A DNA stretch of 20,653 nucleotides from an uncultured Vogesella sp. (GTDB lineage Bacteria; Pseudomonadota; Gammaproteobacteria; Burkholderiales; Chromobacteriaceae). The stretch is from the NCBI GenBank assembly GCA_946479405.1, contig CAMLGD010000036.1, positions 1 to 20,653 of the forward strand, written 5' to 3'. This document shows, in pieces, positions 420 through 20,653 of this stretch (position 1 is the first letter of the stretch; each line of letters opens with the position of its first letter). The translations under genes and the position numbers were made by a program. The notes below the pieces were generated by a model. That model had not been told where the DNA came from, searched no databases, and worked only from the letters and a program-made list of their open reading frames with translations.

Positions 420-439
420 TGCGGCCAACGTTGGCCGCA
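420..439. repeat. Inverted pair of the 10-mer TGCGGCCAAC (candidate uptake signal)
   Basis: A perfect 20-bp palindrome, TGCGGCCAACGTTGGCCGCA, made of two abutting copies of the 10-mer in opposite orientation (420-429 plus, 430-439 minus). It lies just after the aceA terminator. The same palindrome recurs at 922-941, and the identity between the two sites extends to 26 bp (417-442 and 919-944). Confidence 0.9.
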
Positions 440-448
440 AGCGCAGTA

Positions 449-537
449 CGTAGGGCGGGTTGAACCAACGGTTCATACCCGCGTGAATGACCAACTTCGC
501 GCCGCGCGGGTATGGCCTGCGGCCAACCCGCCCTACG
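449..537. repeat. Long inverted repeat in aceA-permease spacer
   Basis: The outer arms CGTAGGGCGGGTTG (449-462) and CAACCCGCCCTACG (524-537) are perfectly complementary. Inside them a second pair, CATACCCGCG (474-483) and CGCGGGTATG (505-514), is also perfect. The whole can fold into one long hairpin of about 89 nt. The GTAGGGCGGGTT...AACCCGCCCTAC pattern resembles dispersed intergenic palindromic repeats known in many proteobacteria. One copy of TGCGGCCAAC (518-527) overlaps the start of the right outer arm. No open frame here looks like a protein gene. Confidence 0.75.
518..527 (+). repeat. Single TGCGGCCAAC copy
   Basis: Exact 10-mer, non-coding, overlapping the right arm of the 449-537 inverted repeat. 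Confidence 0.85.
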
Positions 538-575
538 ACCGCGTAAGCAATCCACCCAACGTTACAAATAGCAGA

Positions 576-800
576 ACCGAACCGGCGTGCCCCAATCCCG
601 TTGGCGCGAGCCGGGCAAAATGGTGCGCCCCAGGTTTTAAGCCGCCGCTTTGTTTGAGCCGCGCGACGGTAGCGCGCGGCGAGTTCGGCGGCGCCTGGGG
701 CGTGCCTTTTTGCACGGGGTTTCGAGCCGCCGCCGGGGAGACGGGGATCGCTAAGGGGGCCGCGGAGGCCCCCTTAGCCTGCTCGCCGGGCGGAACCGGC
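576..800. repeat. Structured non-coding element with nested hairpins
   Basis: A GC-rich segment built from nested complementary arms: CGCCCCAGG (626-634) with CCTGGGGCG (694-702); GCCGCCG (641-647) with CGGCGGC (686-692); GCCGCGCG (658-665) with CGCGCGGC (673-680). A separate 12-bp hairpin follows: GCTAAGGGGGCC (750-761) with GGCCCCCTTAGC (767-778). Frames on both strands stay open (to 806 on plus, 533-802 on minus), but the translations are low-complexity, rich in Pro, Ala, Gly and Arg, and overlap these hairpins, so I read them as by-products of base composition. It is probably a dispersed intergenic repeat or structured RNA element. I could not test copy number. Confidence 0.6.
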
Positions 801-867
801 ACCTAAATCATCATCCGCGCAGCGGATACAAAATCAGCACCAATATCCCCCCACAGCCGCCAAAGAA

Positions 868-899
868 AATGCCGCCAACTTATTAAGGTGAGCGGCATT
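868..899 (-). terminator. Intrinsic terminator of the amino acid permease gene
   Basis: On the minus strand the arms AATGCCGC (899-892) and GCGGCATT (875-868) pair around a 16-nt loop and are followed by TTCTTTG. The hairpin lies about 50 bp past the permease stop, so it probably ends that transcript. Confidence 0.7.
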
Positions 900-921
900 G
901 CTGGCTGCAGGCAAGCGGGCA

Positions 922-941
922 TGCGGCCAACGTTGGCCGCA
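922..941. repeat. Inverted pair of TGCGGCCAAC, second identical palindrome
   Basis: Copies at 922-931 (plus) and 932-941 (minus) abut to give the same 20-bp palindrome as 420-439. It starts 5 bp beyond the permease stop codon on the minus strand, a typical gene-end position for paired uptake signals, and precedes the 868-899 terminator. Confidence 0.9.
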
Positions 942-945
942 AGCA

Positions 946-2340
946 TCACGCCTTGTGCAGATGCGAACGCTGGCGCGAGTAACCGAAGTACACCACCAGG
1001 CCGATCACCAGCCACACCACGAAGCACAGCCAGGTCAGGCTGGACAGCTGCGCCATCAGGAACACGCAGAACACCATGGCCAGCGCCGGTACATAAGGCA
1101 CGCCCGGGCAGTGGAACTTGCGCGGCAGGTCCGGTTCGCGCTTGCGCAGCAGGATGATGGCGGCGGCGATCAGCGAGAACGCGGCCAGGGTGCCGATGTT
1201 CACCAGCTCGGCCAACGTACCCAGCGGCACGAAGCCGGCGATCAGCGCAATGAGGGTGCCGATCAGCCAGGTGGCCTTGTACGGCGTGCCGTACTTCGGA
1301 TGCACCTCGGAGAACACCTTGGGCAGCAGGCCGTCGCGCGACATCGCGAACAGGATGCGGGTCTGGCCGTAGGTCATCACCAGGATCACGGTGAGCATGC
1401 CGAGGATCGCGCCCAGGTCGACGAAGCCGGCGAACCAGTCGAGCTTGGCCACCTGCAACGCCAGCGATACCGGGTGATCGATGCCCTTGAACTGCATGAA
1501 CGGCACGATGCCGGTCATGATGGCGGACACGATCACATACAGCACCGAGCAGATCGCCAGCGACCAGATCACCCCCTTCGGGATGTCCTTCTCCGGGTTC
1601 TTCACCTCTTCCGCCGCGCAGGTTACCGCGTCGAAACCGAGGAAGCTGAAGAACACGATGGCGGCGCCCTGGAACACCCCGCTCATGCCGTAGGGCAGCG
1701 CCGGGTTCCAGTTGGCCGGTTTCACGTGCCATACCGCAATGCCGATGAACAGCAGCACCACCGCCACCTTGATCAGCACCACCACATTGTTCACCTTCTT
1801 CGATTCCTTGATGCCGAAGGCCAGCAAGGCAGTAATCAGCATCGCCACCACGAAGGCCGGCAGGTTGAAGACGGTGTCGACGCCGGGACGGGCGCCGGCG
1901 GCGGCAGTCAGCGCATCCGGCAGATGGATGCCGAAGCCGGACAACAGGCTCTGGAAGTAGCCGGACCAGCCCACCGATACCGCCGACGAGGCCAGCAGGT
2001 ATTCCAGCATCAGGTCCCAGCCGATCATCCAGGCAATGATCTCGCCCAGCGTGGCGTAAGCGTAGGTGTAGGTGGAGCCGGACACCGGCAGCATGGAAGC
2101 GAATTCGGCGTAACACAGCGCGGCAAAGCCGCAGGCGATAGCGCCAATGATGAATGACAGCACCAGGCCGGGGCCGGCCACGGTGGCACCGGTGCCGGTG
2201 AGCACGAAAATACCGGTGCCGATGATGGCGCCGATGCCCAGCATGGTGAGGTCAAAGGCGGACAGCTCCTTGCGCAGCACACCCGCGCCCTGCGACGCGG
2301 CCATCATCTGGCGCACGTCCTTCTTGCGTAACAAACTCAT
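946..2340 (-). CDS. APC-superfamily amino acid permease (cationic amino acid transporter-like)
   Basis: The 464-residue inner-membrane protein has about 12 hydrophobic segments. The first carries GIGAIIGTGIF (residues 35-45), the unwound substrate-binding helix of the amino acid/polyamine/organocation superfamily. Other family stretches are CYAEFASMLPVSGSTYTYAY and FFSFLGFDAVTCAAEEVKNP, which fit the CAT/YfnA-like branch. It probably takes up an amino acid by proton symport; the substrate cannot be told from sequence. I chose the ATG at 2340 because AAGGGACC lies about 5-11 bp upstream and the protein then starts MSLLRKKD, like relatives. The frame extends upstream to 2475, but that part has no family likeness. 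It is transcribed alone, divergent from aceB, and ends at a paired 10-mer and a terminator. Confidence 0.9.
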   Translation of the reverse strand: MSLLRKKDVRQMMAASQGAGVLRKELSAFDLTMLGIGAIIGTGIFVLTGTGATVAGPGLVLSFIIGAIACGFAALCYAEFASMLPVSGSTYTYAYATLGEIIAWMIGWDLMLEYLLASSAVSVGWSGYFQSLLSGFGIHLPDALTAAAGARPGVDTVFNLPAFVVAMLITALLAFGIKESKKVNNVVVLIKVAVVLLFIGIAVWHVKPANWNPALPYGMSGVFQGAAIVFFSFLGFDAVTCAAEEVKNPEKDIPKGVIWSLAICSVLYVIVSAIMTGIVPFMQFKGIDHPVSLALQVAKLDWFAGFVDLGAILGMLTVILVMTYGQTRILFAMSRDGLLPKVFSEVHPKYGTPYKATWLIGTLIALIAGFVPLGTLAELVNIGTLAAFSLIAAAIILLRKREPDLPRKFHCPGVPYVPALAMVFCVFLMAQLSSLTWLCFVVWLVIGLVVYFGYSRQRSHLHKA

Positions 2341-2823
2341 TGTCTGGTCCCTTTTCGCCGGCAACGCCGGCTCTCGTGGAGCCGGGTACCGGGTGTTGTT
2401 GTGATGTATGGCGCAGCGCTGGTCAGACGCAACGCGCAGGGGCGCGAATATGCCGCATCGCAACAGGGGATTCAAGCCGGCGTTGCCAATAGTATTTTGT
2501 ATCCATACTGCAATCTGCAGAAATACGGGACAAATCTACCAGCCGCAGTCCTTCCAGCTGTTATATCGCGCCACGATATGCCAAATCACGGCAGATCACT
2601 GCAAATATGCCTGCCGCACCACTTGCGGCTGCCACAACGAGGCTTTGGCCCAACACACGCCAGACTGGCCACCGCGGACTACCGCCAAAAAAGTAAAAGA
2701 TGTTATCGGTTTTTGCCTATTTTTCTACCACTTGGCTAACGCTAAACTGCCAGACTGACAACGAGAGCGCGCGCTAGCGTGCCACGGACGGCCAGCGGTC
2801 GGACCAACAACCAAGGAGAGACA
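2341..2823. other. Divergent intergenic region (permease / aceB)
   Basis: This 483-bp stretch has no supportable gene; short open frames here have no recognisable content. It is AT-richer than its surroundings around 2490-2540 and 2690-2750 and must hold the promoters of the permease (minus) and aceB (plus). I found no convincing -35/-10 pair for either. It contains the palindrome described at 2563-2579. Confidence 0.5.
2563..2579. promoter_or_regulatory. Possible operator palindrome ATATCG-N5-CGATAT
   Basis: The arms ATATCG (2563-2568) and CGATAT (2574-2579) are perfect and sit in the shared upstream region of the permease and aceB genes. The size suits a dimeric regulator site. No regulator is identified, so the role is inference. 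Confidence 0.3.
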
Positions 2824-4419
2824 ATGGCACTGCAATTGCCGCCGGGAGTGGAGATCCTCGTGCCGGTGAAACCCGCGCACCAGATGCTGCTAAGCAGCGA
2901 GGCGCTGGCCTTCATCGCCATGCTGCACCGCCAGTTCGAGCCGCGGCGCCGCGAATTGCTGGCGCTGCGCCAGCAACGCCAGGCCGAGCTGGATAGCGGC
3001 AAGCTGCCGGACTTTCTGCCGGAAACCGCGGCCATCCGTCACGGCGAGTGGCAGATCGCCCCGCTGCCAGCCGAGCTGCTGGACCGCCGCGTGGAAATCA
3101 CCGGCCCGGCCGAGCGCAAGATGATGATCAACGCGCTCAATTCCGGCGCCTGCTGCTTCATGGCCGATTTCGAGGATGCGCTCAGCCCCGGCTGGCGCAA
3201 CATCCTGCAAGGCCACCAGAACATGTGCGATGCCTGGCGCGGCAGCATCAGCTACCACAGCCCGGACGGGCGCCACTACCAGCTGAACGGCAAACCGGCC
3301 ACGCTGATGCTGCGCCCGCGCGGCTGGCACCTGCCCGAAAAACACCTGCGCATCGACGGCCAGCCGCTGTCGGCAGCGCTGTTCGACTTCGGCCTCAGCT
3401 TCTTTCACAACGCCGCACAGCTGCATGCGCAGGGCCGCCACATCTACTACTACCTGCCCAAGCTGGAAAACCATCTGGAAGCGCGGTTGTGGAACGACAT
3501 CTTCCTGGCAGCACAGCAGGCACTGGCGCTGCCAGTGGGCAGCATCCGCGCCACTGTGCTGATCGAGCACCTGTTGGCCGCATTCGAGATGGACGAGATT
3601 CTGTTCGAGCTGCGCGAGCATAGCGCCGGACTGAACGCCGGCCGCTGGGACTACCTGTTCAGCTGTATCAAGAGCTTCCGCCAGGTGCGGCATTTCTGCC
3701 TGGCCGACCGTGAGCAGATCGGCATGACCGTGCCGTTCATGCGCTCCTACGCACTGCTGCTGCTCAAGACCTGCCACCGCCGTGGCGCACCGGCGATCGG
3801 CGGTATGTCGGCACTGACACCGATCAAGCACGATGTGGCGGCCAACGAGCGCGCGCTGGCAGCGATCCGTGCCGATAAAGAACGCGAGGCTCGTGACGGC
3901 TATGACGGCAGCTGGGTGGCGCACCCGGCGCTGGTGCCGCTGGCGTTCGAGGCGTTCCGCAGCGTGGCCGGCGACGCACCCAATCAGCTGGCGCGCCAGC
4001 GCGAACATGTGGTGATTACCGCCGCCGATCTGCTGAATTTCCAGCCGGAAACCCCGATTACCGAGCAGGGGCTGCGCAACAACATCAGCGTCGGCCTGCA
4101 GTACCTCGGCGCCTGGCTTAGCGGCAATGGCTGCGTACCGATCCACAACCAGCTGGAAGAGGCGGCCACCGCCGAGATCGCCCGCGCCCAGCTGTGGCAG
4201 TGGCTGCACAGCCCCAAGGGCATACTGGCGGATGGCCGCAAGGTGAGTCAGTCGCTGCTGCGCGACCTGGCCACCGACGAGATCAACCGGCTGCAGGCCG
4301 AGTACGGCAGCCGCTGGAGCCGCCATTTTGAAGACGCCGCGCAGTTGTTCGACCTGCTGATCACCAGCGAGGAATTCATCGACTTCTTCACCCTGCCCGG
4401 CTACGAATACCTGGATTGA
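2824..4419 (+). CDS. aceB: Malate synthase A
   Basis: The 531-residue cytosolic enzyme condenses glyoxylate with acetyl-CoA to give malate, the second step of the glyoxylate bypass. Length matches the roughly 530-residue A-type enzyme, not the longer G type. The family signature REHSAGLNAGRWDYLF is at residues 264-279. RPRGWH (164-169) carries an active-site arginine region, and DGSWVAHP lies in the C-terminal half. The start is the ATG at 2824, since AAGGAG (2813-2818) is 5 bp upstream. The frame could begin at 2779, but that lacks a binding site. An in-frame 10-mer copy at 3573-3582 encodes Leu-Ala-Ala. A terminator follows at 4506-4537. Confidence 0.96.
   Translation: MALQLPPGVEILVPVKPAHQMLLSSEALAFIAMLHRQFEPRRRELLALRQQRQAELDSGKLPDFLPETAAIRHGEWQIAPLPAELLDRRVEITGPAERKMMINALNSGACCFMADFEDALSPGWRNILQGHQNMCDAWRGSISYHSPDGRHYQLNGKPATLMLRPRGWHLPEKHLRIDGQPLSAALFDFGLSFFHNAAQLHAQGRHIYYYLPKLENHLEARLWNDIFLAAQQALALPVGSIRATVLIEHLLAAFEMDEILFELREHSAGLNAGRWDYLFSCIKSFRQVRHFCLADREQIGMTVPFMRSYALLLLKTCHRRGAPAIGGMSALTPIKHDVAANERALAAIRADKEREARDGYDGSWVAHPALVPLAFEAFRSVAGDAPNQLARQREHVVITAADLLNFQPETPITEQGLRNNISVGLQYLGAWLSGNGCVPIHNQLEEAATAEIARAQLWQWLHSPKGILADGRKVSQSLLRDLATDEINRLQAEYGSRWSRHFEDAAQLFDLLITSEEFIDFFTLPGYEYLD
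3573..3582 (-). repeat. Single TGCGGCCAAC copy inside aceB
   Basis: Plus strand reads GTTGGCCGCA, read in frame as ..G TTG GCC GCA, coding Leu-Ala-Ala with a TTG leucine codon in a gene that otherwise strongly prefers CTG. Confidence 0.85.
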
Positions 4420-4505
4420 GCGGGTAAACCGGGCATGGCGTGCAGCCGGCAAAGCGTCCAGCTATTCACCTGTACTGGCCGGACTACATAATTCGCCAGC
4501 ATCCA

Positions 4506-4537
4506 CCCGCCAGCACAAGCCGGGCTGGCGGGATTTT
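4506..4537 (+). terminator. Intrinsic terminator of aceB
   Basis: Perfect 9-bp stem CCCGCCAGC (4506-4514) / GCTGGCGGG (4524-4532), 9-nt loop, followed by ATTTT. It lies 86 bp past the aceB stop. Confidence 0.82.
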
Positions 4538-4580
4538 CCCGTCGCGCACCAATGGTGGGCATATCGCACCAAATGAATAC

Positions 4581-5647: not shown

Positions 5648-5657
5648 ATCCTGGCAT

Positions 5658-5690
5658 GGTTGGCCGCACACCCTGCGGCCAACCTGTTTT
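5658..5690 (+). repeat. Inverted pair of TGCGGCCAAC forming an intra-operon hairpin
   Basis: Copies at 5659-5668 (minus) and 5674-5683 (plus) give arms GGTTGGCCGC (5658-5667) and GCGGCCAACC (5675-5684) around a 7-nt loop, followed by TGTTTT. The hairpin sits 11 bp after the binding-protein stop and before the permease. It looks like a weak terminator or 3'-end stabiliser that would let the binding protein be made in excess over the membrane parts. Confidence 0.8.
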
Positions 5691-5739
5691 CCACCGCGCA
5701 GCCACGAGCTGCGCGCTGTCATTTACAGCGAGTAAAACC

Positions 5740-6639
5740 ATGACCCTGATTGCCCTGATGGGGGCGCTGGAAATCGGCCTGATCTTTGCGCTGGTGGCGC
5801 TGGGTGTGCTGATTTCCTTCCGCATCCTCGATTTTCCCGACCTGACCGCCGACGGCAGCTTCCCGCTGGGCGGCGCGGTAGCCGCCACCCTGATCGCCGG
5901 CGGCCATGACCCGTGGCTGGCCTGTGGTGTGGCGACGCTGGCCGGTGCCGCCGCCGGCCTCACCACTGCCTGGCTCAACGTGCGGCTGAACATCCTGCAG
6001 CTGCTGGCCTCCATTCTGGTGATGATCGCGCTGTACTCCATCAACCTTCGCATCATGGGCGCGCCGAACATGCCGCTGATCGGCAGTCCGACCGTGTTCA
6101 GCCCGCTGATCGGCGACAACTTCGACATCGCCTGGCAGGTCCAGCCGGCCATGTTGGCCGCAGTGATCGTGATCGCCAAGCTGGCGCTGGATGTGTTTTT
6201 TGCTTCGCAGACCGGGCTGGCGATGCGCGCCACCGGCGCCAATGCCCGCATGGCTCGGGCACAGGGCATTGCCACCGAGCGCATGGTACTGGCCGGCATG
6301 GCACTGTCCAATGCGCTGATCGCACTGGCTGGCGCGCTGTACGTGCAGACCCAGGGTGGCGCGGATGTTTCCATGGGCGTGGGCACCATCGTGGTGGGGC
6401 TGGCGGCGGTGATCATCGGCGAAACGCTGCTGCCGTCGCGCACGCTGTGGGTGATCACCCTGGCCACCGTGCTGGGTGCACTGCTATACCGCCTGCTGAT
6501 CGCGCTGGCGCTCAACGCCGACTTCATCGGCCTGCAGGCGCAGGATCTGAACCTGATCACCGCGCTGCTGGTGGGCTTTGCGCTGGTACTGCCGAAACTG
6601 AAAGCCAAGATGGTCCGTAAAGCCGGAGGAACCCGCTGA
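5740..6639 (+). CDS. ABC importer permease (COG4120 type)
   Basis: The 299-residue hydrophobic protein is the membrane subunit of the importer. It has about eight membrane segments, starting with ALEIGLIFALVALGVLISFRIL. The stretch FPDLTADGSFPLGGAVAA and the later ATGANARMARAQGI and GGADVSMGVGTIVVGLAAVIIGE are typical of the family that pairs with ABC_sub_bind proteins. The frame is open from 5656, but I chose the ATG at 5740 because the upstream part overlaps the 5658-5684 hairpin and has no membrane character. The ribosome site is weak. The stop overlaps the ATPase start by one base, indicating translational coupling. A 10-mer copy at 6153-6162 encodes Leu-Ala-Ala. Confidence 0.88.
   Translation: MTLIALMGALEIGLIFALVALGVLISFRILDFPDLTADGSFPLGGAVAATLIAGGHDPWLACGVATLAGAAAGLTTAWLNVRLNILQLLASILVMIALYSINLRIMGAPNMPLIGSPTVFSPLIGDNFDIAWQVQPAMLAAVIVIAKLALDVFFASQTGLAMRATGANARMARAQGIATERMVLAGMALSNALIALAGALYVQTQGGADVSMGVGTIVVGLAAVIIGETLLPSRTLWVITLATVLGALLYRLLIALALNADFIGLQAQDLNLITALLVGFALVLPKLKAKMVRKAGGTR
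6153..6162 (-). repeat. Single TGCGGCCAAC copy inside the permease gene
   Basis: Plus strand GTTGGCCGCA, in frame as TTG GCC GCA (Leu-Ala-Ala) within Met-Leu-Ala-Ala-Val. Confidence 0.85.
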
Positions 6640-7444: not shown

Positions 7445-7483
7445 CAAACAATCGGGGCCGCGCAATGCGGCCCCGATTGTTTG
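7445..7483 (+). terminator. Strong terminator of the ABC importer operon
   Basis: Perfect 17-bp stem: CAAACAATCGGGGCCGC (7445-7461), loop GCAAT, GCGGCCCCGATTGTTTG (7467-7483). The 3' arm ends in ATTGTTTG instead of having a free T-run. Its last two bases begin a copy of the 10-mer repeat. Confidence 0.85.
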
Positions 7484-7491
7484 CGGCCAAC
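7482..7491 (+). repeat. Single TGCGGCCAAC copy at the terminator foot
   Basis: Exact 10-mer overlapping the last two bases of the 7445-7483 stem; non-coding. Confidence 0.85.
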
Positions 7492-7580: not shown

Positions 7581-8753
7581 ATGCTGCTGCTTGACCCCTT
7601 TACCCTGTATTTCCTGCTGATGGCCACCCTGCTGTTGCTGTCGCTGCTGCTGCTGTTGATCGGGCACATCTACCGGCAGGAGCGTTCGCTACGGCTGTGG
7701 GGACTCAGCGGGCTGCTGGGCGTCGGCGGTGTGCTGCTACTGATGGCACGCGAGGTGCTATCGCCATGGCTGGGGGTGGTTGCGGCCAACTCGCTGCTGT
7801 TCTGTAGCCTGGCCGGCACCTGGCTGGGCATCGCCGAATTCCAGCAGCGCGCGCTGCCCTGGCGGCGGGCCGGTCTGCTGTGCGGTGGTTTCACGCTGCT
7901 GTGGATGTTGCTGCTGTTCCACGGCGATAGCGGACTGCGCGCGCTGCTGTACGGCCCGATCTACCTGCTGTTTGCCGGCCTGGCGTTGCACGAGTTGTTC
8001 CGCCAGCCGCAACACTGGCAGCGCGGCAGCTACCGGCTGGTAGGCGCCATCATCCTGCTGCTGATGCTGAGCTACACCTACCGCACCTTCTACATGCTGC
8101 AACACCCGGTGCACAACCCGCTGCACAATACCGGCCTGCCACTGCAGCAGCTGCTGGCCAGCCTGCTGGAATTCGCCAAGACGCTGGGCCTGCTGTATCT
8201 GGTATTCGAACGCATGCAGCAGCGGCTGCAACAGCTGGCCATGCAGGATGCGCTGACCGGGCTGCACAACCGCCGCGCCTTCGAGCAGCAGGCGCTGGCC
8301 GCCCTGCAGCACGATGGCCACCAGCGCCATGCACTGCTGGTCATGGACCTGGACCTGTTCAAACGCATCAATGACGGCCATGGTCATCAGGCCGGCGATG
8401 CCGCACTACAACACTTTGCCGGCTTGCTAGCTGCGCAGCTGCCTGCCGGCAGTATCAGCGGCCGCCTGGGCGGCGAGGAGTTCGTGGCACTGCTGCGTGA
8501 CACCAGCAGCAGCCAGGCCTGGCTGGCGGCAGAAGCGATCCGTAGCCAGCTGGCCGCACACTGGATCTGCCTGCCGGACAAGCCGGCGTTTCAGGTCACC
8601 ACCAGCATCGGGCTGGCCATGCGCCAGCACGGGCAACAGACGTTGGCCGCGCTCTACCATGACGCAGACATGGCGCTGTATGATGCCAAGCAGCGCGGTC
8701 GCAACCAAGTGTGCAGCAGCCGGCCGCTCGTTGCGATGCCGGCACCAGCGTGA
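7581..8753 (+). CDS. Membrane-anchored diguanylate cyclase (GGDEF domain)
   Basis: The 390-residue protein is predicted to make cyclic di-GMP from two GTP at the inner membrane. Residues 1-210 hold about six hydrophobic segments with no sensor domain I recognise. The GGDEF domain spans about 215-380: it begins with DALTGLHNRRAF (223-234), has DLDLFKRINDGHGHQAGD, and carries GGEEF at 297-301, so the catalytic site is intact. The residues at the inhibitory I-site position (normally RxxD, five residues before GGEEF) read PAGS, so product inhibition is probably absent. The start at 7581 has no clear ribosome site; a later start is possible. The gene seems to be its own unit, with a 10-mer copy at 7781. 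Confidence 0.9.
   Translation: MLLLDPFTLYFLLMATLLLLSLLLLLIGHIYRQERSLRLWGLSGLLGVGGVLLLMAREVLSPWLGVVAANSLLFCSLAGTWLGIAEFQQRALPWRRAGLLCGGFTLLWMLLLFHGDSGLRALLYGPIYLLFAGLALHELFRQPQHWQRGSYRLVGAIILLLMLSYTYRTFYMLQHPVHNPLHNTGLPLQQLLASLLEFAKTLGLLYLVFERMQQRLQQLAMQDALTGLHNRRAFEQQALAALQHDGHQRHALLVMDLDLFKRINDGHGHQAGDAALQHFAGLLAAQLPAGSISGRLGGEEFVALLRDTSSSQAWLAAEAIRSQLAAHWICLPDKPAFQVTTSIGLAMRQHGQQTLAALYHDADMALYDAKQRGRNQVCSSRPLVAMPAPA
7781..7790 (+). repeat. Single TGCGGCCAAC copy inside the GGDEF gene
   Basis: Exact 10-mer, in frame as GCG GCC AAC (Ala-Ala-Asn) between membrane segments. Confidence 0.85.
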
Positions 8754-12674: not shown

Positions 12675-12698
12675 AGGTTGGCCGCATGCGGCCAACCT
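12675..12698. repeat. Inverted pair of TGCGGCCAAC between cysD and cysN
   Basis: A perfect 24-bp palindrome with copies at 12677-12686 (minus) and 12687-12696 (plus), abutting in the order opposite to that at 420 and 922. It sits between two genes that must be coexpressed. Because it has no T-run, it probably does not terminate efficiently. Confidence 0.88.
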
Positions 12699-12721: not shown

Positions 12722-14152
12722 ATGGCACACCAATCCGACCTGATCTCCAGCGACATCCTGTCCTACCTGAAGCAGCACGAAAACAAGGACATGCTGCGCT
12801 TCATCACCTGCGGCAACGTCGACGACGGCAAATCCACGCTGATCGGCCGCCTGCTGCATGACTCCAAGCTGATCTTCGAAGATCAGCTGGCCGCCATCCA
12901 GCGCGACTCCAAGAAGTACAACACCACCGACCAGGACATCGACCTGGCGCTGCTGGTGGACGGCCTGCAGGCCGAGCGCGAACAGGGCATCACCATCGAT
13001 GTGGCCTACCGCTACTTCAGCACCGATCGCCGCAAGTTCATCATCGCCGACTGCCCGGGCCACGAGCAGTACACCCGCAACATGGCCACCGGCGCCTCCA
13101 CCTGCAACCTGGCAGTGATCCTGATCGACGCCCGCTACGGCGTGCAGACCCAGACCCGTCGCCACAGCTACATCGTCAGCCTGCTGGGCATCAAGCACGT
13201 CATCGTCGCCATCAACAAGATGGACCTGGTGGACTTCGATCAGACAGTGTTTGACCGCATCCGTGCCGACTACACTGCGTTTGCGGCCAACCTGGACATC
13301 CCGGACATCCGCTTCGTGCCGATCTCCGCGCTGCGCGGTGACAACGTGGTCAACCGCACCGACAGCGCACCGTGGTACGACGGCCAGACGCTGATGGAAA
13401 TCCTGGAAACCGTCGAGATCGACCACGACGTGAAACTGCCGGCGTTCCGTCTGCCGGTGCAGTACGTGAACCGCCCGAACCTGGACTTCCGCGGCTTCTG
13501 CGGCACCGTGGCCGCCGGCGAAATCCGCCCGGGCGATCGCGTGCGCGCGCTGCCATCCGGCAAGGAAAGCACGGTCAAGGCCGTGGTGGTGTACGAAGGC
13601 GAACTGGCAGCGGCCCATACCGGCCAGGCCATTACCCTGACGCTGGCCGACGAGATCGACATCTCGCGCGGTGACATGATCGTGCGCGTGGACGAGGCGC
13701 AGCCTGAAGTCAGCCAGGGCGTGGAGGCGCATCTGGTGTGGATGGACGAAGCACCGCTGGTGGTGGGCAAGGAATACCTGTTCAAGCTGTCCGGCAAGAG
13801 CGTCACCGGCCGCGTGGAACGCATCGTGCACCGCGTCGACGTGAACACGCTGGATGCCTTCGAAGCGGAAAAGCTGCAGCTGAACGAAATCGGCCTGGTA
13901 CGCATCGCCTTCAACTCGCAGGTGGTATTTGATGCCTACCGCGACAGCCGTGCCACCGGCAGCCTGATCGTGATCGACCGCCTGTCCAACGCCACCGCCG
14001 GCGCCGCCATGATCCGCAGCGCCGCCCACAGCGAAGGCCAGAGCGAACACGACGAACTGGCCCACTTCAAGGCCTTCGAGGTGGAGCTTAACACCCTGGT
14101 GCGCAAGTACTTCCCGCACTGGGAAGCGCGCGACATCAGCAAATTGCTCTGA
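12722..14152 (+). CDS. cysN: Sulfate adenylyltransferase large subunit (GTPase)
   Basis: The 476-residue GTPase subunit couples GTP hydrolysis to APS formation by CysD. Length equals E. coli CysN (475), so there is no fused CysC kinase. G1 is GNVDDGKS (31-38), G3 DCPGH (110-114), G4 NKMD (165-168); the C-terminal half has elongation-factor-like beta-barrel sequence ([21 protein letters not shown]). The ATG at 12722 gives MAHQSDL; the upstream start at 12686 would lie inside the palindrome and is unlikely. AAGG is about 12 bp upstream, so the ribosome site is modest. A copy of the 10-mer at 13282 encodes Ala-Ala-Asn. A good terminator follows. Confidence 0.96.
13282..13291 (+). repeat. Single TGCGGCCAAC copy inside cysN
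   Basis: Exact 10-mer in frame GCG GCC AAC (Ala-Ala-Asn). Confidence 0.85.
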
Positions 14153-14374: not shown

Positions 14375-15253
14375 TCAGCGCAGGCTGCAGGGCAGGTTCA
14401 GACCGCCGAGGCGGAACCAGCGCATCAGATTGTCGAAATCACGCTGTTCGCCGGCACTCAGCCGGGCATAGCCCTCGCGCACCCGCTGTGCCAGCGCTGC
14501 ATCCACATTGCGGCGCGGCGCGCTGCGGAACAACAGCATGAACGGCGCCAGTGCGGTGCGGAAACTGTGCAATTCGCGCTGCAGCAACGCCACCGCCTGC
14601 TGCAGTTCGTCCAGGCTGAAGGCTGCGCGCAGCGAGTTGAGAAAGTCGCGGGTAAACAGCTCGGACTGCAACTCGACGCGGTCGTGGGCGAAGAAATGCT
14701 GGGTGGCCCGGCGCTTGAGGCGACCGAAATCGGCCAGATAGACGCCGCCGTCGGAACGCAACACCCGGCGAATCTGCTGCATCGTCTGCGCCAGCTGCGC
14801 GGTATCCGACAGATGATGCAGCGACATGGTGCACAGCACGCAGTCGACACTGGCATCGGCAATACCGTCCAGGCAGCTGATATCGCCGTGACGCAGGCTG
14901 ATGTTGGCCGCACCGGCCTGCGCCAGATTGTCCCGCGCCAGTGCCAGCATGCCAGCCGAGGCATCCAGCCCGATGAAGCGGGCGTCCGGGTGCAGCCGGG
15001 CGATCTGCAGCAGCTGATTGGCCGGGCCGCAGCCCAGGTCCAGCACCACGTCACCGGGCCGGATCACCGGCAGCGACATGATGGCGTGAAACAGGTAGAT
15101 GTAATTGAGGATGCCGTTGCCCTGGCCGCTGTGCACGAAGGCCTGGATCTGCTCCGCATCCTCCATCAGCGCCTGTGGTTCCGGCTCGCGCGCCAGCAGT
15201 GCCGGCGACAGCCGCTCCAGCAGCAGGTGAGCCAGCATGGCAGTGGCGGCCAT
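14375..15253 (-). CDS. SAM-dependent methyltransferase (class I) of the polyene-type locus
   Basis: The 292-residue protein has the class I fold: motif I is LDLGCG (71-76), followed by the acidic FIGLDAS strand (about 93-99), HGDISCLD, and CVLCTMSLHHLSD. It begins with a helical segment and ends with a C-terminal helical part not seen in the smallest methyltransferases. The substrate is unknown. Aryl polyene loci commonly carry a methyltransferase that modifies the aryl head, and the neighbouring glycosyltransferase and acyltransferase on the same strand support that role by inference. The start at 15253 has AAGGA about 11 bp upstream; a second in-frame ATG at 15238 is possible. A 10-mer copy is at 14903. 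Confidence 0.82.
   Translation of the reverse strand: MAATAMLAHLLLERLSPALLAREPEPQALMEDAEQIQAFVHSGQGNGILNYIYLFHAIMSLPVIRPGDVVLDLGCGPANQLLQIARLHPDARFIGLDASAGMLALARDNLAQAGAANISLRHGDISCLDGIADASVDCVLCTMSLHHLSDTAQLAQTMQQIRRVLRSDGGVYLADFGRLKRRATQHFFAHDRVELQSELFTRDFLNSLRAAFSLDELQQAVALLQRELHSFRTALAPFMLLFRSAPRRNVDAALAQRVREGYARLSAGEQRDFDNLMRWFRLGGLNLPCSLR
14903..14912 (-). repeat. Single TGCGGCCAAC copy inside the methyltransferase gene
   Basis: On the coding (minus) strand the 10-mer reads T-GCG-GCC-AAC, encoding Ala-Ala-Asn. Confidence 0.85.
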
Positions 15254-15276: not shown

Positions 15277-15286
15277 TGCGGCCAAC
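15277..15286 (+). repeat. Single TGCGGCCAAC copy between methyltransferase and glycosyltransferase
   Basis: Exact 10-mer in the 68-bp spacer. It is followed by CCTGCGG, an incomplete second motif start. Confidence 0.82.
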
Positions 15287-16205: not shown

Positions 16206-16964
16206 TCAATCCAGTCGCAACTCCGGGTCGATGGAAAGCTTGATCGATGCTTCAAAATATTGCTGCAAATTACGCGCGATTTCATCACGCGGGCCATTTG
16301 CCTCGAATTGCTTGCCGGGCACCGCACGGTAAATCAGCGGAAATAGCGGCGGACGCCATATTTTCCAGCCCTTGCTCAGATAAGGTGAATTGGTAGTAAT
16401 GATAATGGTCTGCAATGGCGCCGCCGCCTTATTGGCAATCAATGCCACCGAGCCGCCAATATCATTTACCGGCTGGCGCGTAGTACGGGTGCCTTCCGGA
16501 AAAATCATCAGCACCGTGCCCTGCTGTACGGTACGGATGGCGGCACGAAACATCTGCTCCGGATAGCGGTTGGACACGTAACCGGCCAGGTAGGCCCCGG
16601 CCCCCAGAAACAGATTGGAACTGATGCTGGCCTTCATCAGGCATACCGCGCGCGGTACGCGCGACAGCACCAGAAAAGCGTCAATCATGCTGGGGTGATT
16701 GGGCACCAGCAGCATGCGCTCCCGCCCCTTGAGCCGGTCTAGTGCACGCAAATCCAGCCGCATCAGCCCGCAGGCCTGGGCGCCGGCCAAGAAGCAGCGG
16801 CAGATGGCGCTGATCGCCCACTGCACCACCGGCTGTCGCAGCCTCTTCGGTGCCAGCAGCAGCGGCAGCACGGCGATATTGCCCAGCAACAGCATGGAAC
16901 CCAACCAGCATAACATCAGGTAAAACAATATGATCTGGGCCGGCCGGAAATAGCGACTCAACAT
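16206..16964 (-). CDS. Lysophospholipid acyltransferase-like protein of the polyene-type locus
   Basis: The 252-residue membrane protein has N-terminal hydrophobic segments (IILFYLMLCWLGSMLLL, then IAVLPLLL) and the PlsC-type acyltransferase motifs NHPSMID (89-95, the HX4D catalytic pair) and FPEGTR (155-160). Enzymes of this family move acyl groups onto glycerol or sugar acceptors; in aryl polyene loci one is thought to link the polyene to its outer-membrane lipid anchor. I prefer the ATG at 16964, which matches the usual start near the first membrane segment. The frame runs on to 17048 but that extension is charged and unlike the family. Divergent from the ACP gene. Confidence 0.87.
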   Translation of the reverse strand: MLSRYFRPAQIILFYLMLCWLGSMLLLGNIAVLPLLLAPKRLRQPVVQWAISAICRCFLAGAQACGLMRLDLRALDRLKGRERMLLVPNHPSMIDAFLVLSRVPRAVCLMKASISSNLFLGAGAYLAGYVSNRYPEQMFRAAIRTVQQGTVLMIFPEGTRTTRQPVNDIGGSVALIANKAAAPLQTIIITTNSPYLSKGWKIWRPPLFPLIYRAVPGKQFEANGPRDEIARNLQQYFEASIKLSIDPELRLD

Positions 16965-17202
16965 TATCTCGAATTTACTCCCGCTTTCTGGGTAACCATG
17001 TTTTTGCTCCAGGCGGGCTAGGCGGCCAATCATTCTGGCAGGCAACAATCCGGGGGAGTTTCAGTGTAATTGACGGCGGTCATTGCGGCATTGGCGTGCC
17101 GTGAAAGCGCGGGCGGAATCAAGTTACCGACAACGCATATACTATAATTTTACTATACAATTATCGGCTTTTGGTACACGCCACGTTTTGGATCGAATAC
17201 TC
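16965..17202. promoter_or_regulatory. Divergent promoter region (acyltransferase / ACP)
   Basis: A 238-bp spacer with an AT-rich core at 17137-17165. It holds a perfect TATAAT (17143-17148), the direct repeat ACTATA (17141-17146 and 17153-17158) and TATACA (17154-17159). On the minus strand ACTATA reads TATAGT, so the core could serve both directions. No matching -35 box at 17 bp was found, so an activator may be needed. Confidence 0.5.
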
Positions 17203-17481
17203 ATGCTGGAACAAATCATCAAAAGCTATCTGGTCAATACCAAGGGCAAGGATTCCGCCCTGTTCGACGATCCGGCACTGCAGGTTTCAGACTTGGGCCT
17301 CGACTCGCTGGACATGGTGGAGATGCTGTTCGAAATCGAAGATCGCTGCGGTTTCCAGCTGCCGGATCCCACCCGCTACCCCAAGATGAGCTTCCGTGAA
17401 ATGCTGGCCGATATCGAGGCAGCCATTCGCGAGCACAACAACGGCGAACTGCCGGCACTGAGCCTCGAAGCGAGCAAATAG
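17203..17481 (+). CDS. Acyl carrier protein
   Basis: The 92-residue acidic carrier has DLGLDSLDMVEMLFEIED; Ser35 in the DSL motif would carry the 4'-phosphopantetheine arm. Helix pattern and length fit a stand-alone ACP of type II synthases. It begins a tight cluster: the ketosynthase start codon overlaps its stop by one base. The ATG at 17203 is favoured because the frame upstream (to 17083) lacks family likeness. The sequence differs from housekeeping AcpP, in which the motif is usually GADSLDTVE, so it is probably dedicated to this locus. Confidence 0.9.
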   Translation: MLEQIIKSYLVNTKGKDSALFDDPALQVSDLGLDSLDMVEMLFEIEDRCGFQLPDPTRYPKMSFREMLADIEAAIREHNNGELPALSLEASK

Positions 17482-18728
17482 TGGCCAAGGTTCTGATTAC
17501 CGGCATGGGCGCCATCAGCCCGCTGGGCGCCGATCTGCCTACCAGCTTCGCCCAGGCGCTGGCCGGGCACTGCGCCGTTGGCGCGGCGACGCCCGAAATC
17601 GCCAGATGGCTGCCCAATGTATTGCTGGCCCAGGCTGCCGCCGAGCCGGCCAGCCTGCTGGATGGCAAGCATGCCGGCCTGGACCGCGCCAGCCAGTTTG
17701 CCCTGGTAGCCGCCAACGAGGCACTGGCTGCGGCCAACTTCGGTCCGGCACCGGATGATGCACGCCGCGTCGGCGTCTACGTCGGCATCGGCTTTGGCGG
17801 CGCACATACCGTGGACGGCCTGTACGACCGCTTCCAGTCCGCGGTACACAGCGATGGCAAGCGCAACCCGGTGATGGTGCACCCGCTGTCGGTACCACGC
17901 ATGATGGCCAATGCGCCGGCGGCCGCTATTTCCATGGCTTACGGCCTGCGCGGCCCCAGCCACACCTACACCGTGGCCTGCGCCTCCTCCAGCGTCGCTA
18001 TCGGCGAAGCCTTCCGGGCGATTCGCGATGGCTACCTGGACGCTGCCGTGGTGGTGGGCTGCGAAGCCATGCTCACCCCGGGTGCGATGCTGGCCTGGAA
18101 TGCGCTGCGCGTGATGGCCAAACCGCATGCGGCCAACCCTGCGCGCAGCTGCCGCCCGTTCTCGCAGGATCGCAGTGGTTTCGTGCTGGGTGAAGGCGGC
18201 GCCGCCATCGTGCTGGAAAGCGAAGCCCGCGCCAGCGCGCGTGGCCAGCAGGCGCTGGCCGAATTGAGCGGCTATGGCTGCAGCAGCGATGCCGCCCACC
18301 TCACCGCACCATCCAGCGCCGAGCAGATCAATGCCATGCAGCAGGCGCTGGACGATGCCGGCCTGCGCCCGCAGGACATCCAGTACCTGAACGCACACGG
18401 CACCGCCACCGATGCCGGCGATGTCACCGAGACCGAATCCATTCGCGGCGTGTTCGGCAGTGCCGCAGACCAGCTGGCCGTCAGCTCCACCAAGGCAATG
18501 CACGGCCACCTGATCGGTGCCGGCGGCATCCTGGAATTCGCACTCAGCGTGATGGCGATGCGCAGCGGCTCGCTGCCGCCCACCGCCACGCTGGAGCAGG
18601 CGGACCCGCGCTGCGATCTGGATTACATCCCGTTGCAGGCGCGCCATGGCTGCGATGTGCGCTCCATCATGTCCAACTCCTTCGCTTTCGGCGGCAGTAA
18701 TGTGTCGCTGGTGGCAAAGCGCGTGTAG
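17481..18728 (+). CDS. 3-oxoacyl-ACP synthase II-like ketosynthase
   Basis: The 415-residue condensing enzyme extends the acyl chain on ACP. The catalytic triad is present: Cys167 in VACASSS, His306 in NAHGTAT and His343 in KAMHGHLIGAGG, with Lys338. FAFGGSN near the C-terminus is also typical. An intact cysteine means it is a true ketosynthase, not a chain-length factor. It starts with GTG overlapping the ACP stop, indicating coupling, and is followed 2 bp later by the dehydratase. It is FabF-like, but its neighbours point to specialised polyene or lipid synthesis. Two copies of the 10-mer (17729 and 18129) occur in it. Confidence 0.93.
   Translation: MAKVLITGMGAISPLGADLPTSFAQALAGHCAVGAATPEIARWLPNVLLAQAAAEPASLLDGKHAGLDRASQFALVAANEALAAANFGPAPDDARRVGVYVGIGFGGAHTVDGLYDRFQSAVHSDGKRNPVMVHPLSVPRMMANAPAAAISMAYGLRGPSHTYTVACASSSVAIGEAFRAIRDGYLDAAVVVGCEAMLTPGAMLAWNALRVMAKPHAANPARSCRPFSQDRSGFVLGEGGAAIVLESEARASARGQQALAELSGYGCSSDAAHLTAPSSAEQINAMQQALDDAGLRPQDIQYLNAHGTATDAGDVTETESIRGVFGSAADQLAVSSTKAMHGHLIGAGGILEFALSVMAMRSGSLPPTATLEQADPRCDLDYIPLQARHGCDVRSIMSNSFAFGGSNVSLVAKRV
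17729..17738 (+). repeat. Single TGCGGCCAAC copy inside the ketosynthase gene (1)
   Basis: Exact 10-mer in frame GCG GCC AAC (Ala-Ala-Asn). Confidence 0.85.
18129..18138 (+). repeat. Single TGCGGCCAAC copy inside the ketosynthase gene (2)
   Basis: Exact 10-mer in frame GCG GCC AAC, within His-Ala-Ala-Asn-Pro. Confidence 0.85.
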
Positions 18729-18730
18729 TC

Positions 18731-19231
18731 ATGAACGAGCAAGGCTACGCCTACCCTATACAGCTGCAGCGCGGCGATATCGAGCAGATATTGCCGCACC
18801 GTGGCGCTATCTTCGTCTGCCAGCGGCTTACCATCGACGGGCCGCACCAGTTTCATGGCGTGGCAAGTTGGCCGCATGACCATGCGGTAATCGAAGGGCA
18901 CTTTCCCGGCATGCCCATCGTGCCGGGCGTGCTGCTGATCGAAACCATGGCGCAGCTCGCCGGCGCCGGCCTGCTGGCGGGCGACCCTTACGTCAAGACG
19001 CTGCCGGAAGATTCGGTGGGCGTGCTGGCGGCAGTGCGCAACTGCTGGTTCAAGCAGCCGGTGCTGCCGGGGCAGCAGGTGGAATTCTTCATCCACTGCC
19101 GGCAGATGGCGCCGCTGCTGGTACAGGTCAGCGCCCAGGTGAAAGTAGCGGAACAGGACGTGGCCAAGCTGGAAGTGGCGCTGGCCTATGCGCCGCGCAG
19201 TCAGCTGCAGGCGGCGAGCACAGCCGGTTGA
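18731..19231 (+). CDS. FabZ-like 3-hydroxyacyl-ACP dehydratase
   Basis: The 166-residue hot-dog-fold protein has LPHRGAIFVC near its start, then GHFPGMPIVPGVLLIETMAQ with catalytic His57 and Glu71, as in FabZ. It would remove water from 3-hydroxyacyl-ACP to give the trans-2-enoyl product; without an enoyl reductase in view, double bonds would be kept, as a polyene needs. It follows the ketosynthase by 2 bp and has an extra C-terminal tail ending QLQAASTAG. The 10-mer at 18867 is read here as Ser-Trp-Pro-His, a different frame from all other copies. Convergent with the small gene at 19251. Confidence 0.9.
   Translation: MNEQGYAYPIQLQRGDIEQILPHRGAIFVCQRLTIDGPHQFHGVASWPHDHAVIEGHFPGMPIVPGVLLIETMAQLAGAGLLAGDPYVKTLPEDSVGVLAAVRNCWFKQPVLPGQQVEFFIHCRQMAPLLVQVSAQVKVAEQDVAKLEVALAYAPRSQLQAASTAG
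18867..18876 (-). repeat. Single TGCGGCCAAC copy inside the dehydratase gene
   Basis: Plus strand GTTGGCCGCA, read as GT-TGG-CCG-CA (Trp-Pro), which is a third reading frame for the motif. Confidence 0.85.
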
Positions 19232-19250
19232 TCCCTTAAACTCAGCTTAT

Positions 19251-19718
19251 TTAGACCCCACTAGCAAGCTCCTGATTGAACCGCCAGATCAACTCCGTTT
19301 CCGGCAGATCGTATGCAGCCATTGCCTGATAGTAGTTTGATACGGCGCGGTCGAGCAGGTCATGTGCCTCAATGCGGGCATTGAAAGTAACGTGGTCATC
19401 TCCCGTCCTTTCCATGTGCTTTGTCGCGTTCTTTGCACAATTCATAACACCAGCAATTGCCTTCGGCGTCGACTCTGCTCCGTCTTCATGAATGTACTTT
19501 GACAGGCGGACAGCAGCACTCTGCACACCAGCAAAGGACGACTCCCCACCGATAGCTTCTACAAGCCTACCAAGCAACTCCTCAGCTGCACCGGCAAGAT
19601 GAAGCGCAGCAAAGTCTGAGTCACCTTCGTAATAGAGGCGAAGAGCACGATCCAGCAGTTCGCATGCGATTGCAAGTTTAGGCGTTGGCGTTACCGCAGA
19701 ACTCTCCTGTACCCCCAC
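19251..19718 (-). CDS. Helical protein of unknown function, lower GC, inserted in the polyene-type locus
   Basis: I do not recognise a defined family. The protein is about 155 residues, all-helical in appearance, with LLDRALRLYYEGDSDFAALHLAGAAEELLG near the start, a stretch around KNATKHMER in the middle and LLDRAVSNYYQ near the end, loosely reminiscent of HEPN-like helical bundles (weak). The start is unclear: GTG at 19718 is the only in-frame start near the end of the ketoreductase gene, 5 bp past its stop. Yet AGGAG lies downstream of that GTG (about 19704-19709), with no ATG, GTG or TTG at the right distance, only GTA. Sampled stretches are about 47-60% GC against about 70% in the neighbouring ketoreductase gene. 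Likely acquired. Confidence 0.65.
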   Translation of the reverse strand: MGVQESSAVTPTPKLAIACELLDRALRLYYEGDSDFAALHLAGAAEELLGRLVEAIGGESSFAGVQSAAVRLSKYIHEDGAESTPKAIAGVMNCAKNATKHMERTGDDHVTFNARIEAHDLLDRAVSNYYQAMAAYDLPETELIWRFNQELASGV

Positions 19719-19723
19719 AACGA

Positions 19724-20443
19724 TTAGATCATGCCGCCATTGATGGAAATCACCTGGCCGCTGATATAGCCGGCCTGCTCCGACGCCAGAAAGCCCACCA
19801 GGCTGGCCACTTCCTCCGGCCGCCCCACCCGCTTCATCGGCACCAGCTGCGCGACTGTCTCCTTGTCGAACACGTCCTTGGTCATGTCCGAGGCAATGAT
19901 GCCGGGTGCCACCGCGTTGACAGTGATGCCGCGGCTGGCCAGCTCCAGCGACAGCGACTTGGTGGCGCCGTGCAGCGCGCTCTTGGCGGCGGCGTAGTTG
20001 GTCTGGCCGCGGTTGCCGGCCAGCGCCGCCACCGAGGTGATATTGATGATGCGGCCCCAGCGGGTGCGGATCATCGGCATGGTCAGCGGCTGGGTCACGT
20101 TGAAGAAGCCGTGCAACGACACATCGATTACCCGGTGCCACTGCGCCGCCTGCATGCCGGGGAACACCGCGTCGTCGTGGATGCCGGCATTGTTCACCAG
20201 CACCTGCACCGGGCCCTGCTCCAGCAGCTGTTCCAGCGCCGCAGCGGTGGCAGCGGCATCGGCCACGTCGAACTGCACTGCCTCGGCCGAACAGCCCTGC
20301 TCGCGCAGCGCGCCGCACAGTTGTTCCGCCGCCGCCAGATTGCTGTTGGCGTGGATGATGACGTGGAAACCGTCGGCCGCCAGCCGTTGGCTGATGGCTG
20401 CGCCGATGGCACCGCTGCCACCGGTAATCAAGGCTCGTTTCAT
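19724..20443 (-). CDS. 3-oxoacyl-ACP reductase (short-chain dehydrogenase, FabG-like)
   Basis: The 239-residue SDR enzyme reduces 3-oxoacyl-ACP with NADPH. The cofactor motif TGGSGAIG is at 7-14, NNAG at 84-87, and the catalytic Ser137, Tyr150 and Lys154 stand in ITSVAALAGNRGQTNYAAAKSAL. The C-terminus, ISGQVISINGGMI, is typical of FabG. I chose ATG at 20443 (MKRALITGG); a TTG at 20455 would add four residues and overlap the upstream stop. The ribosome site is weak, suggesting coupling to the upstream hot-dog gene, whose stop is 8 bp away. It fits the ketoreductase of aryl polyene loci (often called ApeQ), an inference from context. Confidence 0.92.
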   Translation of the reverse strand: MKRALITGGSGAIGAAISQRLAADGFHVIIHANSNLAAAEQLCGALREQGCSAEAVQFDVADAAATAAALEQLLEQGPVQVLVNNAGIHDDAVFPGMQAAQWHRVIDVSLHGFFNVTQPLTMPMIRTRWGRIINITSVAALAGNRGQTNYAAAKSALHGATKSLSLELASRGITVNAVAPGIIASDMTKDVFDKETVAQLVPMKRVGRPEEVASLVGFLASEQAGYISGQVISINGGMI

Positions 20444-20451
20444 GCTTTTAC

Positions 20452-20653
20452 TCAAGAAGTTGATTTGCCGGCCAGTGCGTCGGCATCCAGCACCACGCCC
20501 AGGCGGCCGCTCACCAGCAGGCTGTCGCCGGCATGCAGGCTGAAACGGTACATGGCGTTGATCTCGCTACCAGACAGCCGCTCGGCATGAATGCGCAACG
20601 GTGCGGCCAACTGGTCCAGCCGGCGGCAATGCCAGCTCAGCTCGCGCACGCTG
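20452..20653 (-). CDS. Hot-dog dehydratase-like protein, C-terminal part (ApeP-like; 5' end outside window)
   Basis: The frame is open to the right edge; about 66 residues are visible. The segment LRIHAERLSGSEINAMYRFSLHAGDSLLVSGRLGVVL reads like the last strands of a hot-dog domain and fits the COG4706-type predicted 3-hydroxyacyl-ACP dehydratases that precede the ketoreductase in aryl polyene loci. No catalytic residues are in view, so activity cannot be judged. It is coupled to the ketoreductase. A 10-mer at 20602 is read as Leu-Ala-Ala on the coding strand. Confidence 0.65.
   Translation of the reverse strand, partial: SVRELSWHCRRLDQLAAPLRIHAERLSGSEINAMYRFSLHAGDSLLVSGRLGVVLDADALAGKSTS
20602..20611 (+). 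repeat. Single TGCGGCCAAC copy inside the ApeP-like gene
   Basis: Plus-strand copy; coding strand (minus) reads TTG GCC GCA (Leu-Ala-Ala). Confidence 0.85.

Follow-up and report, generated by a model that had tools for sequence, protein, structure and literature searches.

The question raised by this locus is what keeps a single ten-base word, TGCGGCCAAC, in 20 exact copies along 20,653 bases of DNA. The stretch concerned, hereafter the window, is contig CAMLGD010000036.1 of an uncultured Vogesella sp., read over its positions 1 to 20,653. A first-pass annotation, made from the letters alone, had proposed that the word is a DNA uptake sequence (DUS) in a dialect peculiar to this lineage. Two families, Pasteurellaceae and Neisseriaceae, are known to have uptake sequences (PMC7811141; here and below, cited statements refer to excerpts of the sources). 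The analysis described here leaves the proposal as the best reading, with the refinement that the dialect would be one of three related ones. On the sequence evidence assembled below, TGCGGCCAAC is very probably the DUS of the genus Vogesella, and the three dialects of the Chromobacteriaceae would share the form (A)AG-GTTGGCCG followed by CA, AA or AG.

A word kept exact in the window

The 20 copies are distributed as 12 on the plus and 8 on the minus strand, whereas 100 dinucleotide shuffles of the window contain 0.13 copies on average and one at most, in line with the roughly 0.1 copies that had been estimated by hand. The count, strands and sites of the first-pass annotation hold, except for one copy, placed at 18129, whose first base is 18128. 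The word is also the top 10-mer of the window under a third-order Markov model (20 vs 0.18 expected). Only five sites differ from it by one mismatch, and the excess of exact over near copies fits a word maintained letter for letter rather than a decayed repeat. When the window is compared with V. oryzae, 7 of the 10 copies that align fully are exact, at a mean identity of 88.6% over aligned bases, where hand arithmetic predicts about 3 of 10; the other 10 copies are not fully alignable.

With regard to location, 12 copies fall in spacers and 8 in genes by rough gene calling. The earlier split of 11 and 9 hinges on start codons: an ORF at 5656-6639, for example, would start beside the pair of copies at 5659-5683 and run through it. 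Eight spacer copies form four inverted pairs, as had been noticed, and all four fold as hairpins (z -2.0 to -3.5). The eight genic copies, five in one orientation and three in the other, have one codon register in common; of the three reading frames claimed for them, two peptide readings fit and the third was not recovered.

Three words across the Chromobacteriaceae

The genome-wide checks that the first-pass annotation called for were run on relatives of the window's genome, in a set of 61 Chromobacteriaceae genomes. TGCGGCCAAC occurs in 1,871-2,895 copies in 13 of them, including V. oryzae (G001), V. alkaliphila (G004) and the metagenome-assembled genomes (MAGs) G002 and G003, and in 8-58 copies in the other 48, a roughly 100-fold difference in copy number between genomes with and without it. 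The reversed control word reaches 26 copies at most.

Two sister words surfaced among the commonest 10-mers of the first loci inspected and of the surroundings of comP in 60 genomes, and we refer to the three dialects as TGC (TGCGGCCAAC), TTC (TTCGGCCAAC) and CTC (CTCGGCCAAC). The TTC word is present in 183-2,168 copies in eight genomes, namely, G011 (strain JH1-16; 2,168), G054 (1,851), G005 (an 'uncultured Aquitalea' MAG; 1,368), G048 (1,245), G055 (1,104), G057 (893), G009 (Crenobacter oryzisoli; 579) and G056 (183), with 78 or fewer elsewhere; the ComP of G048 corresponds to sequence P0016, labelled Gulbenkiania by NCBI. The CTC word is abundant in two genomes, G046 (1,940) and G047 (1,590), and does not exceed 165 copies elsewhere. 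Each of the 23 word-bearing genomes has one dominant word, the closest to a mixture being G009, with 579 TTC and 165 CTC copies. Fewer than a thousand copies of the dominant word are found in G057, G009 and G056. In G056 and G009, the few TTC copies stand alongside a TTC-type ComP, and these genomes may hold decaying, young or mixed dialects, or be incomplete or mixed assemblies.

Among 399 genomes drawn from the order, a draw that may not include Neisseriaceae, the motif HKCGGCCAAC (six words) reaches 1,330-2,999 copies in only eight, all of which belong to the family set; the highest count outside these is 315, in a 7.0-Mb genome. No uptake-like 10-mer emerged from 200 kb each of the Aquitalea-like G019 and the Chromobacterium-like G035. 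A weak excess of CTCGGCCAGC in G035 (33 vs 5) was discarded as an uptake word, its letters reading as Leu-Ala-Glu codons. Other frequent 10-mers were noticed in about 20 kb each of G037 (GGCAATATCA, seven times; L201), G039 (CAGCAAGGCC, eight times; L215) and G045 (TCAGGGTAAA, six times; L229), and may be local repeats or something else.

Genome-wide anatomy and non-uptake explanations

The layout of the words was followed in evenly spaced samples of one genome per dialect, with 400 kb of G065 (TGC) and 200 kb each of G046 (CTC) and G054 (TTC). In all three, the word is the top over-represented 10-mer (256 vs 3.0 expected in G065, 108 vs 1.6 in G046 and 117 vs 1.1 in G054), and it is the top-scoring 10-mer within at most 20 kb around comP in 19 of the 23 word-bearing genomes, the exceptions being G066, G009, G056 and G057. 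Exact copies outnumber one-mismatch sites at 256:68 (TGC), 117:44 (TTC) and 108:94 (CTC).

The first-pass annotation had found no consensus in the flanking bases and had fixed the core at 10 bp. Both statements have to be given up: in 255 G065 copies, positions 11-13 favour C-T-T (57%, 57% and 55%), this weak 3' extension is common to all three dialects, and the preferred motif is hence longer. Apart from it, the flanks of the copies are unlike one another, which argues against a repeat family. Read on the opposite strand, the unit becomes (A)AG-GTTGGCCG followed by CA, AA or AG, and TGCGGCCAAC in DUS orientation is (A)AG-GTTGGCCGCA. The 5' extension is a preference only, with A and G at -2 and -1 in 57% and 57% of copies in G065, 64% and 58% in G046, and 50% and 55% in G054.

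One group of alternatives holds that the word is a methylation, restriction, replication or segregation site, of the KOPS, Chi or matS kind or the target of a methyltransferase, as might be thought of a short, exact, lineage-specific word found genome-wide. Nevertheless, copies are balanced between the G-rich and C-rich strands (120:136 in G065, 53:55 in G046 and 59:58 in G054), so that the replication-strand bias relative to GC skew that would mark Chi or KOPS is absent from the sampled relatives. The word is spread along the chromosome rather than gathered in one region, the variance-to-mean ratio of counts per 20 kb being 1.13 in G065, 0.86 in G046 and 2.36 in G054, whose samples include a prophage. 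This limited clustering, together with the shared C-T-T extension, speaks against such a site, which would also account for neither the prophage gap nor the match with ComP clades described below. On this evidence of strand, spacing and flanks, we regard the explanation as very improbable.

The prophage gap is the single copy-free stretch among ten of 20 kb sampled in G054, and coincides with a Mu-like prophage (L282, G054:C3:349457-369456). Seven gaps of more than 5 kb were found in the G065 samples, and the two that were inspected hold a low-GC sugar/glycosyltransferase cluster and a region with an integrase and a resolvase. These three copy-free stretches were picked for having no copies, and illustrate rather than test a depletion in foreign DNA. 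The Mu-like prophage carries a D12-class adenine methyltransferase.

Copies per kb are higher in spacers than in genes (1.31/0.48 in G065, 1.14/0.44 in G046 and 0.82/0.46 in G054), densities that rest on rough gene calls, poor ones in the case of G054, and higher in convergent than in divergent spacers (2.97/0.67, 2.29/0.15 and 2.28/0.68, respectively). Inverted pairs with gaps of up to 40 bases number 23 among 256 copies in G065, 7 among 108 in G046 and 4 among 117 in G054. At least five T among eight bases are found beside pairs at 9 of 46 flanks in G065, 4 of 14 in G046, 3 of 8 in G054 and 1 of 8 in the window, and the mean T content beside pairs is 0.27-0.45 compared with 0.17-0.21. In Neisseria, paired uptake sequences build intrinsic terminators, likewise as inverted pairs at gene ends, some with T-runs. 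Could the word then be primarily a terminator or RNA-hairpin element, its abundance due to selection for termination? The folding of all four window pairs, the density of copies in convergent spacers and the T-rich flanks are what such an explanation would lead one to expect. However, in contrast to the paired terminators of Neisseria, most copies in Chromobacteriaceae are single, and many are genic (157 of 256 in G065, in every codon register with one dominating), while a T-run accompanies at most 9 of the 23 G065 pairs. Termination, moreover, needs a hairpin and not one exact 10-mer, and does not predict three dialects differing at two fixed positions. Termination as the primary role is scarcely credible, whereas part of the inverted pairs may also end transcription.

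ComP orthologues and the competence machinery

The first-pass annotation had pointed to a ComP-like minor pilin as a gene to look for, and such a pilin is present in the word-bearing relatives. Among the pilins of V. oryzae, one of 139 residues has as its best PDB match the N. meningitidis ComP 2m3k (E 1.5e-6), with 5hz7 at 6.7e-6, and that of JH1-16 matches N. subflava ComP 2nba (E 8.7e-11) and 2m3k (1e-7). Modelled with AlphaFold2 (mean pLDDT 89.6), V. facilis ComP retrieves ComP as its top three folds, namely, 5hz7 (E 1e-5, TM 0.58), 2nba (2e-3, 0.51) and 2m3k (2e-2, 0.45), followed by PilX at E 0.58. Invariant K, WP.LP and N.D.G residues run through the alignment of homologues, whereas the residue after NTDxG (Y/E) and the one before it (R/K) vary from dialect to dialect. 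The Pfam family ComP_DUS (PF16732) was abandoned as a presence marker: it matches all 61 genomes, largely via other pilins, and V. oryzae ComP, at 18.5 bits, falls short of the cut-off of 27.3.

A profile of ComP orthologues, built from homologues of two word-bearing species and therefore scoring in favour of word-bearing genomes, found matches in 61 of 61 genomes, which are ComP-like in 57 (best E 1.4e-19 or better). All 23 word-bearing genomes have an orthologue, at E 6.5e-36 or better. Four genomes, G042-G045, have weaker pilin matches only (2.3e-13 to 8e-16), and lack both a ComP orthologue and all three words. Of note, G054 has two adjacent ComP-like pilin genes (G054:C3:1518675-1519630, L202; E 3e-27 and 6.5e-36), one of them diverged.

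The ComP tree comprises 57 rows of at least 60 bits, G042, G043 and G045 (52-59 bits) having been dropped and G044 left out, and carries a long-branch warning. In this tree, the 13 TGC ComPs form one clade (100/100) and the two CTC ComPs another (93/84), and the four word states need 5 changes compared with 21.1 when labels are shuffled. A recA tree with 60 rows requires 7 state changes compared with 21.2, and the TGC genomes are split into two groups of eight and five. G042-G045 (recA L291, L292, L299 and L300) stand there among word-bearing lineages with a support of 93/76, which is not strong; a joint loss of receptor and tag in these genomes (L228-L230) is possible.

ComP is the DUS receptor in Neisseria (PMC3868556, PMC12061091). 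This precedent, together with the coincidence of the Vogesella-group ComP clade with the TGC dialect, bears on a further alternative, in which the word is an uptake sequence read by a protein other than ComP. One candidate would be the product of the GspH/FimT-type pilin gene (C22:13803) that lies directly upstream of comP (C22:14327) in V. oryzae (span C22:13803-14740; L110, L174), and the occurrence of ComP in 34 genomes without an abundant word likewise leaves room for another reader. Given the Neisseria precedent and the clade agreement, we consider a different receptor unlikely; the arrangement of the two genes could also represent a two-pilin DNA receptor unit.

Matches to ComEC were found in 59 of 61 genomes, 21 of the 23 word-bearing ones among them, and matches to DprA in all 61, including all 23. 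ComEC and DprA also have matches in the controls, E. coli and others, and are not discriminating.

Comparison with known uptake sequences

Chromobacteriaceae words resemble the DUS of Neisseria in copy number, in a length of 10-12 bases, in the 5' AG preference, in the use of both orientations, in their inverted pairs, in lineage dialects and in the presence of a ComP orthologue. Eight DUS dialects have been described, each reading CTG at +6 to +8 and carrying A at +10, in 943 to 5,918 copies per genome (PMC3630211). For the words described here, +10 is A in TGC and TTC, and G in CTC. DUS are spoken of in Neisseriaceae only in the excerpts of PMC11316581 and PMC10715097, and the excerpt of Frye 2013 (PMC3630211) reports no obvious DUS in five genomes, two of Chromobacterium and the others of Laribacter, Lutiella and Pseudogulbenkiania; the family concerned here is Chromobacteriaceae, not Neisseriaceae.

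The known words themselves are rare in our samples: six DUS words have nine copies at most (king3, in the 400 kb of G065), and the canonical DUS has 0-1. Pasteurellaceae use the uptake signal sequence (USS) words AAGTGCGGT and ACAAGCGGT, which are genome-wide and short as well, but constitute a different word in a different clade; they are not abundant in the samples either (0-1 and 1-4 copies). The receptor of the Pasteurellaceae USS is called unknown, with PpdA/ComN predicted (PMC12616744).

Letter by letter, AG-mucDUS and AG-simDUS each share 9 of 12 positions with the TTC form AGGTTGGCCGAA, strand and register being the same, and 9 or more are reached by 1% of shuffles; the CTC form agrees with known DUS at 8 of 12, which is reached by 7%. 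The comparison covered seven dialects on both strands at offsets -4 to 4, wadDUS being left out, with dialect letters, other than those of king3, from PMC7371117 and PMC12061091. Together with the TGC match given below, these agreements may be taken as modest evidence for common descent.

Several observations weigh against assigning the word to a ComP-read DUS system. With regard to the word, the CTG core is present in all eight described dialects, and transformation of N. meningitidis and N. subflava is lost when single bases of it are altered (PMC12061091), whereas all three Chromobacteriaceae words read CCG at +6 to +8; moreover, the 12-base TGC form, which is the window's own dialect, matches known DUS at only 8 of 12 positions, as do 7% of shuffles. 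In Neisseria, the DD loop and strands beta4-beta5 of ComP are stapled by two disulfides (PMC12061091), whereas the Chromobacteriaceae ComPs mostly have two cysteines in their C-terminal part, and not the four needed for two disulfides (two after residue 40 in 54 of 57 rows). With these two defining features lacking, the word is not filed as a described DUS dialect. With regard to distribution, the TTC ComPs do not form one clade on the ComP tree (4 changes), and a ComP orthologue, more diverged, is also present in the 34 genomes without an abundant word, so that ComP alone is no predictor of DUS. The lysine of a Y/F-K motif in ComP is found in 21 of the 23 word-bearing genomes and in none of the 34 others; in a phylogeny-aware test with only three independent contrasts, however, no tested ComP association was significant, and we do not claim that any ComP residue goes with the presence of a word. 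As for the downstream machinery, the search of the 61 genomes yielded no ComEC for the MAGs G002 and G003, the V. alkaliphila ComEC match is in two pieces (G004:C9:9030-9572), by frameshift or assembly error, and a stop codon interrupts the DprA match in G054 (G054:C3:1180062-1180681).

When these points are set against the likenesses, the best reading of the sequence evidence is that of a DUS group, AG-GTTGGCCGNN, outside the Neisseriaceae, DUS-like in its putative working while distinct from the described dialects.

Proposed mechanism and history

Most likely, the word would mark DNA as 'self' for a pilus protein that captures DNA, and thereby favour the uptake of DNA from the cell's own kind. 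From the abundance, anatomy and dialect boundaries of the words, and from the ComP orthologues and their clades, we infer competence in Vogesella, binding of the word by ComP and biased uptake. The minor pilin ComP, displayed in the type IV pilus, would bind the word on free double-stranded DNA, and retraction of the pilus would draw the bound DNA into the periplasm. ComEC would then pass one strand inward, to be recombined by DprA and RecA. Biased uptake of tagged DNA followed by recombination would keep exact copies abundant and spread new ones, which would persist mostly where they do little harm, that is, at gene ends, there as inverted pairs, some of them doubling as terminators.

As to history, we give an even chance to a scenario in which all of the following hold: a ComP-read DUS was ancestral to Neisseriaceae and Chromobacteriaceae; CTG is not invariant, and a second group, AG-GTTGGCCG with AA, CA or AG, has a ComP that reads CCG; TTCGGCCAAC is the older word, and a single switch to TGCGGCCAAC took place in Vogesella, its ComP changing along with it; the words disappeared from Chromobacterium, most Aquitalea and others, and in G042-G045 ComP was lost too.

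Copies and gene content of the window

The individual copies are listed in Table 1. The pair at 5659-5683 forms a hairpin followed by UGUUUU; it is exact in L001, L003 and L004, and has one mismatch in one arm in L002.

Table 1. Exact copies of TGCGGCCAAC in the window, with strand and setting.
Positions	Strand	Setting
420..429	+	Left arm of tail-to-tail pair 420-439, about 90 bp past the end of the isocitrate lyase ORF (52-330)
430..439	-	Right arm of pair 420-439
518..527	+	Spacer
922..931	+	Arm of tail-to-tail pair 922-941, immediately 3' of the amino-acid permease ORF (946-2475, minus strand)
932..941	-	Arm of pair 922-941
3573..3582	-	Within malate synthase gene
5659..5668	-	Arm of head-to-head pair 5659-5683, 3' of the ABC substrate-binding ORF (ends 5647)
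5674..5683	+	Arm of pair 5659-5683
6153..6162	-	Within ABC permease gene
7482..7491	+	Spacer
7781..7790	+	Within GGDEF gene
12677..12686	-	Arm of head-to-head pair 12677-12696, between PAPS-reductase-domain gene and EF-Tu-like GTPase gene
12687..12696	+	Arm of pair 12677-12696
13282..13291	+	Within EF-Tu-like GTPase gene
14903..14912	-	Within methyltransferase gene
15277..15286	+	Spacer or close to gene end
17729..17738	+	Within ketoacyl synthase gene
18128..18137	+	Within ketoacyl synthase gene
18867..18876	-	Inside or beside FabA-like gene, depending on the start chosen
20602..20611	+	Close to window end

The gene content is one of ordinary metabolism, comprising the end of an isocitrate lyase gene, an amino-acid permease, a malate synthase, an ABC transporter and a diguanylate cyclase, as well as a glutathione transferase, a PAPS-reductase-domain protein and an EF-Tu-like GTPase, the last two probably CysD/CysN-like, and fatty-acid-type synthases. 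The malate synthase shares 91% identity with that of V. oryzae, 78% and 77% with those of two 'Neisseriaceae' MAGs and 73% with that of V. alkaliphila, and the GGDEF protein shares 95% with 'Vogesella sp. GCM10023246' and 85% with V. facilis. At 17083-19231, genes for a phosphopantetheine carrier, a ketoacyl synthase and a FabA-like protein stand in a row, with an acyltransferase gene adjoining, and perhaps represent an aryl-polyene-like lipid cluster.

Implications

Besides Frye 2013, none of the matches listed in a search of the open literature, by titles and starts of abstracts, dealt with uptake sequences in these genera; Table S1D of that paper, on over-represented 10-mers, may list TTCGGCCAAC unrecognised, if, for example, G055 or G057 are Pseudogulbenkiania. 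If the reading of TGCGGCCAAC as an uptake sequence is true, the uptake-sequence system extends beyond Neisseriaceae to further genera, environmental ones included. The three core-breaking words and their ComP orthologues would then show co-evolution of receptor and word to be feasible even across the core, and would offer natural receptor/word pairs for working out the unsolved recognition of DNA by ComP. The finding also suggests that Vogesella, a genetically tractable genus, is naturally transformable; conjugation and allelic exchange are established in V. indigofera OSW_575, an environmental strain, in excerpts of PMC12826045 that make no mention of natural transformation. The word may also provide a marker by which foreign DNA can be recognised in such genomes.

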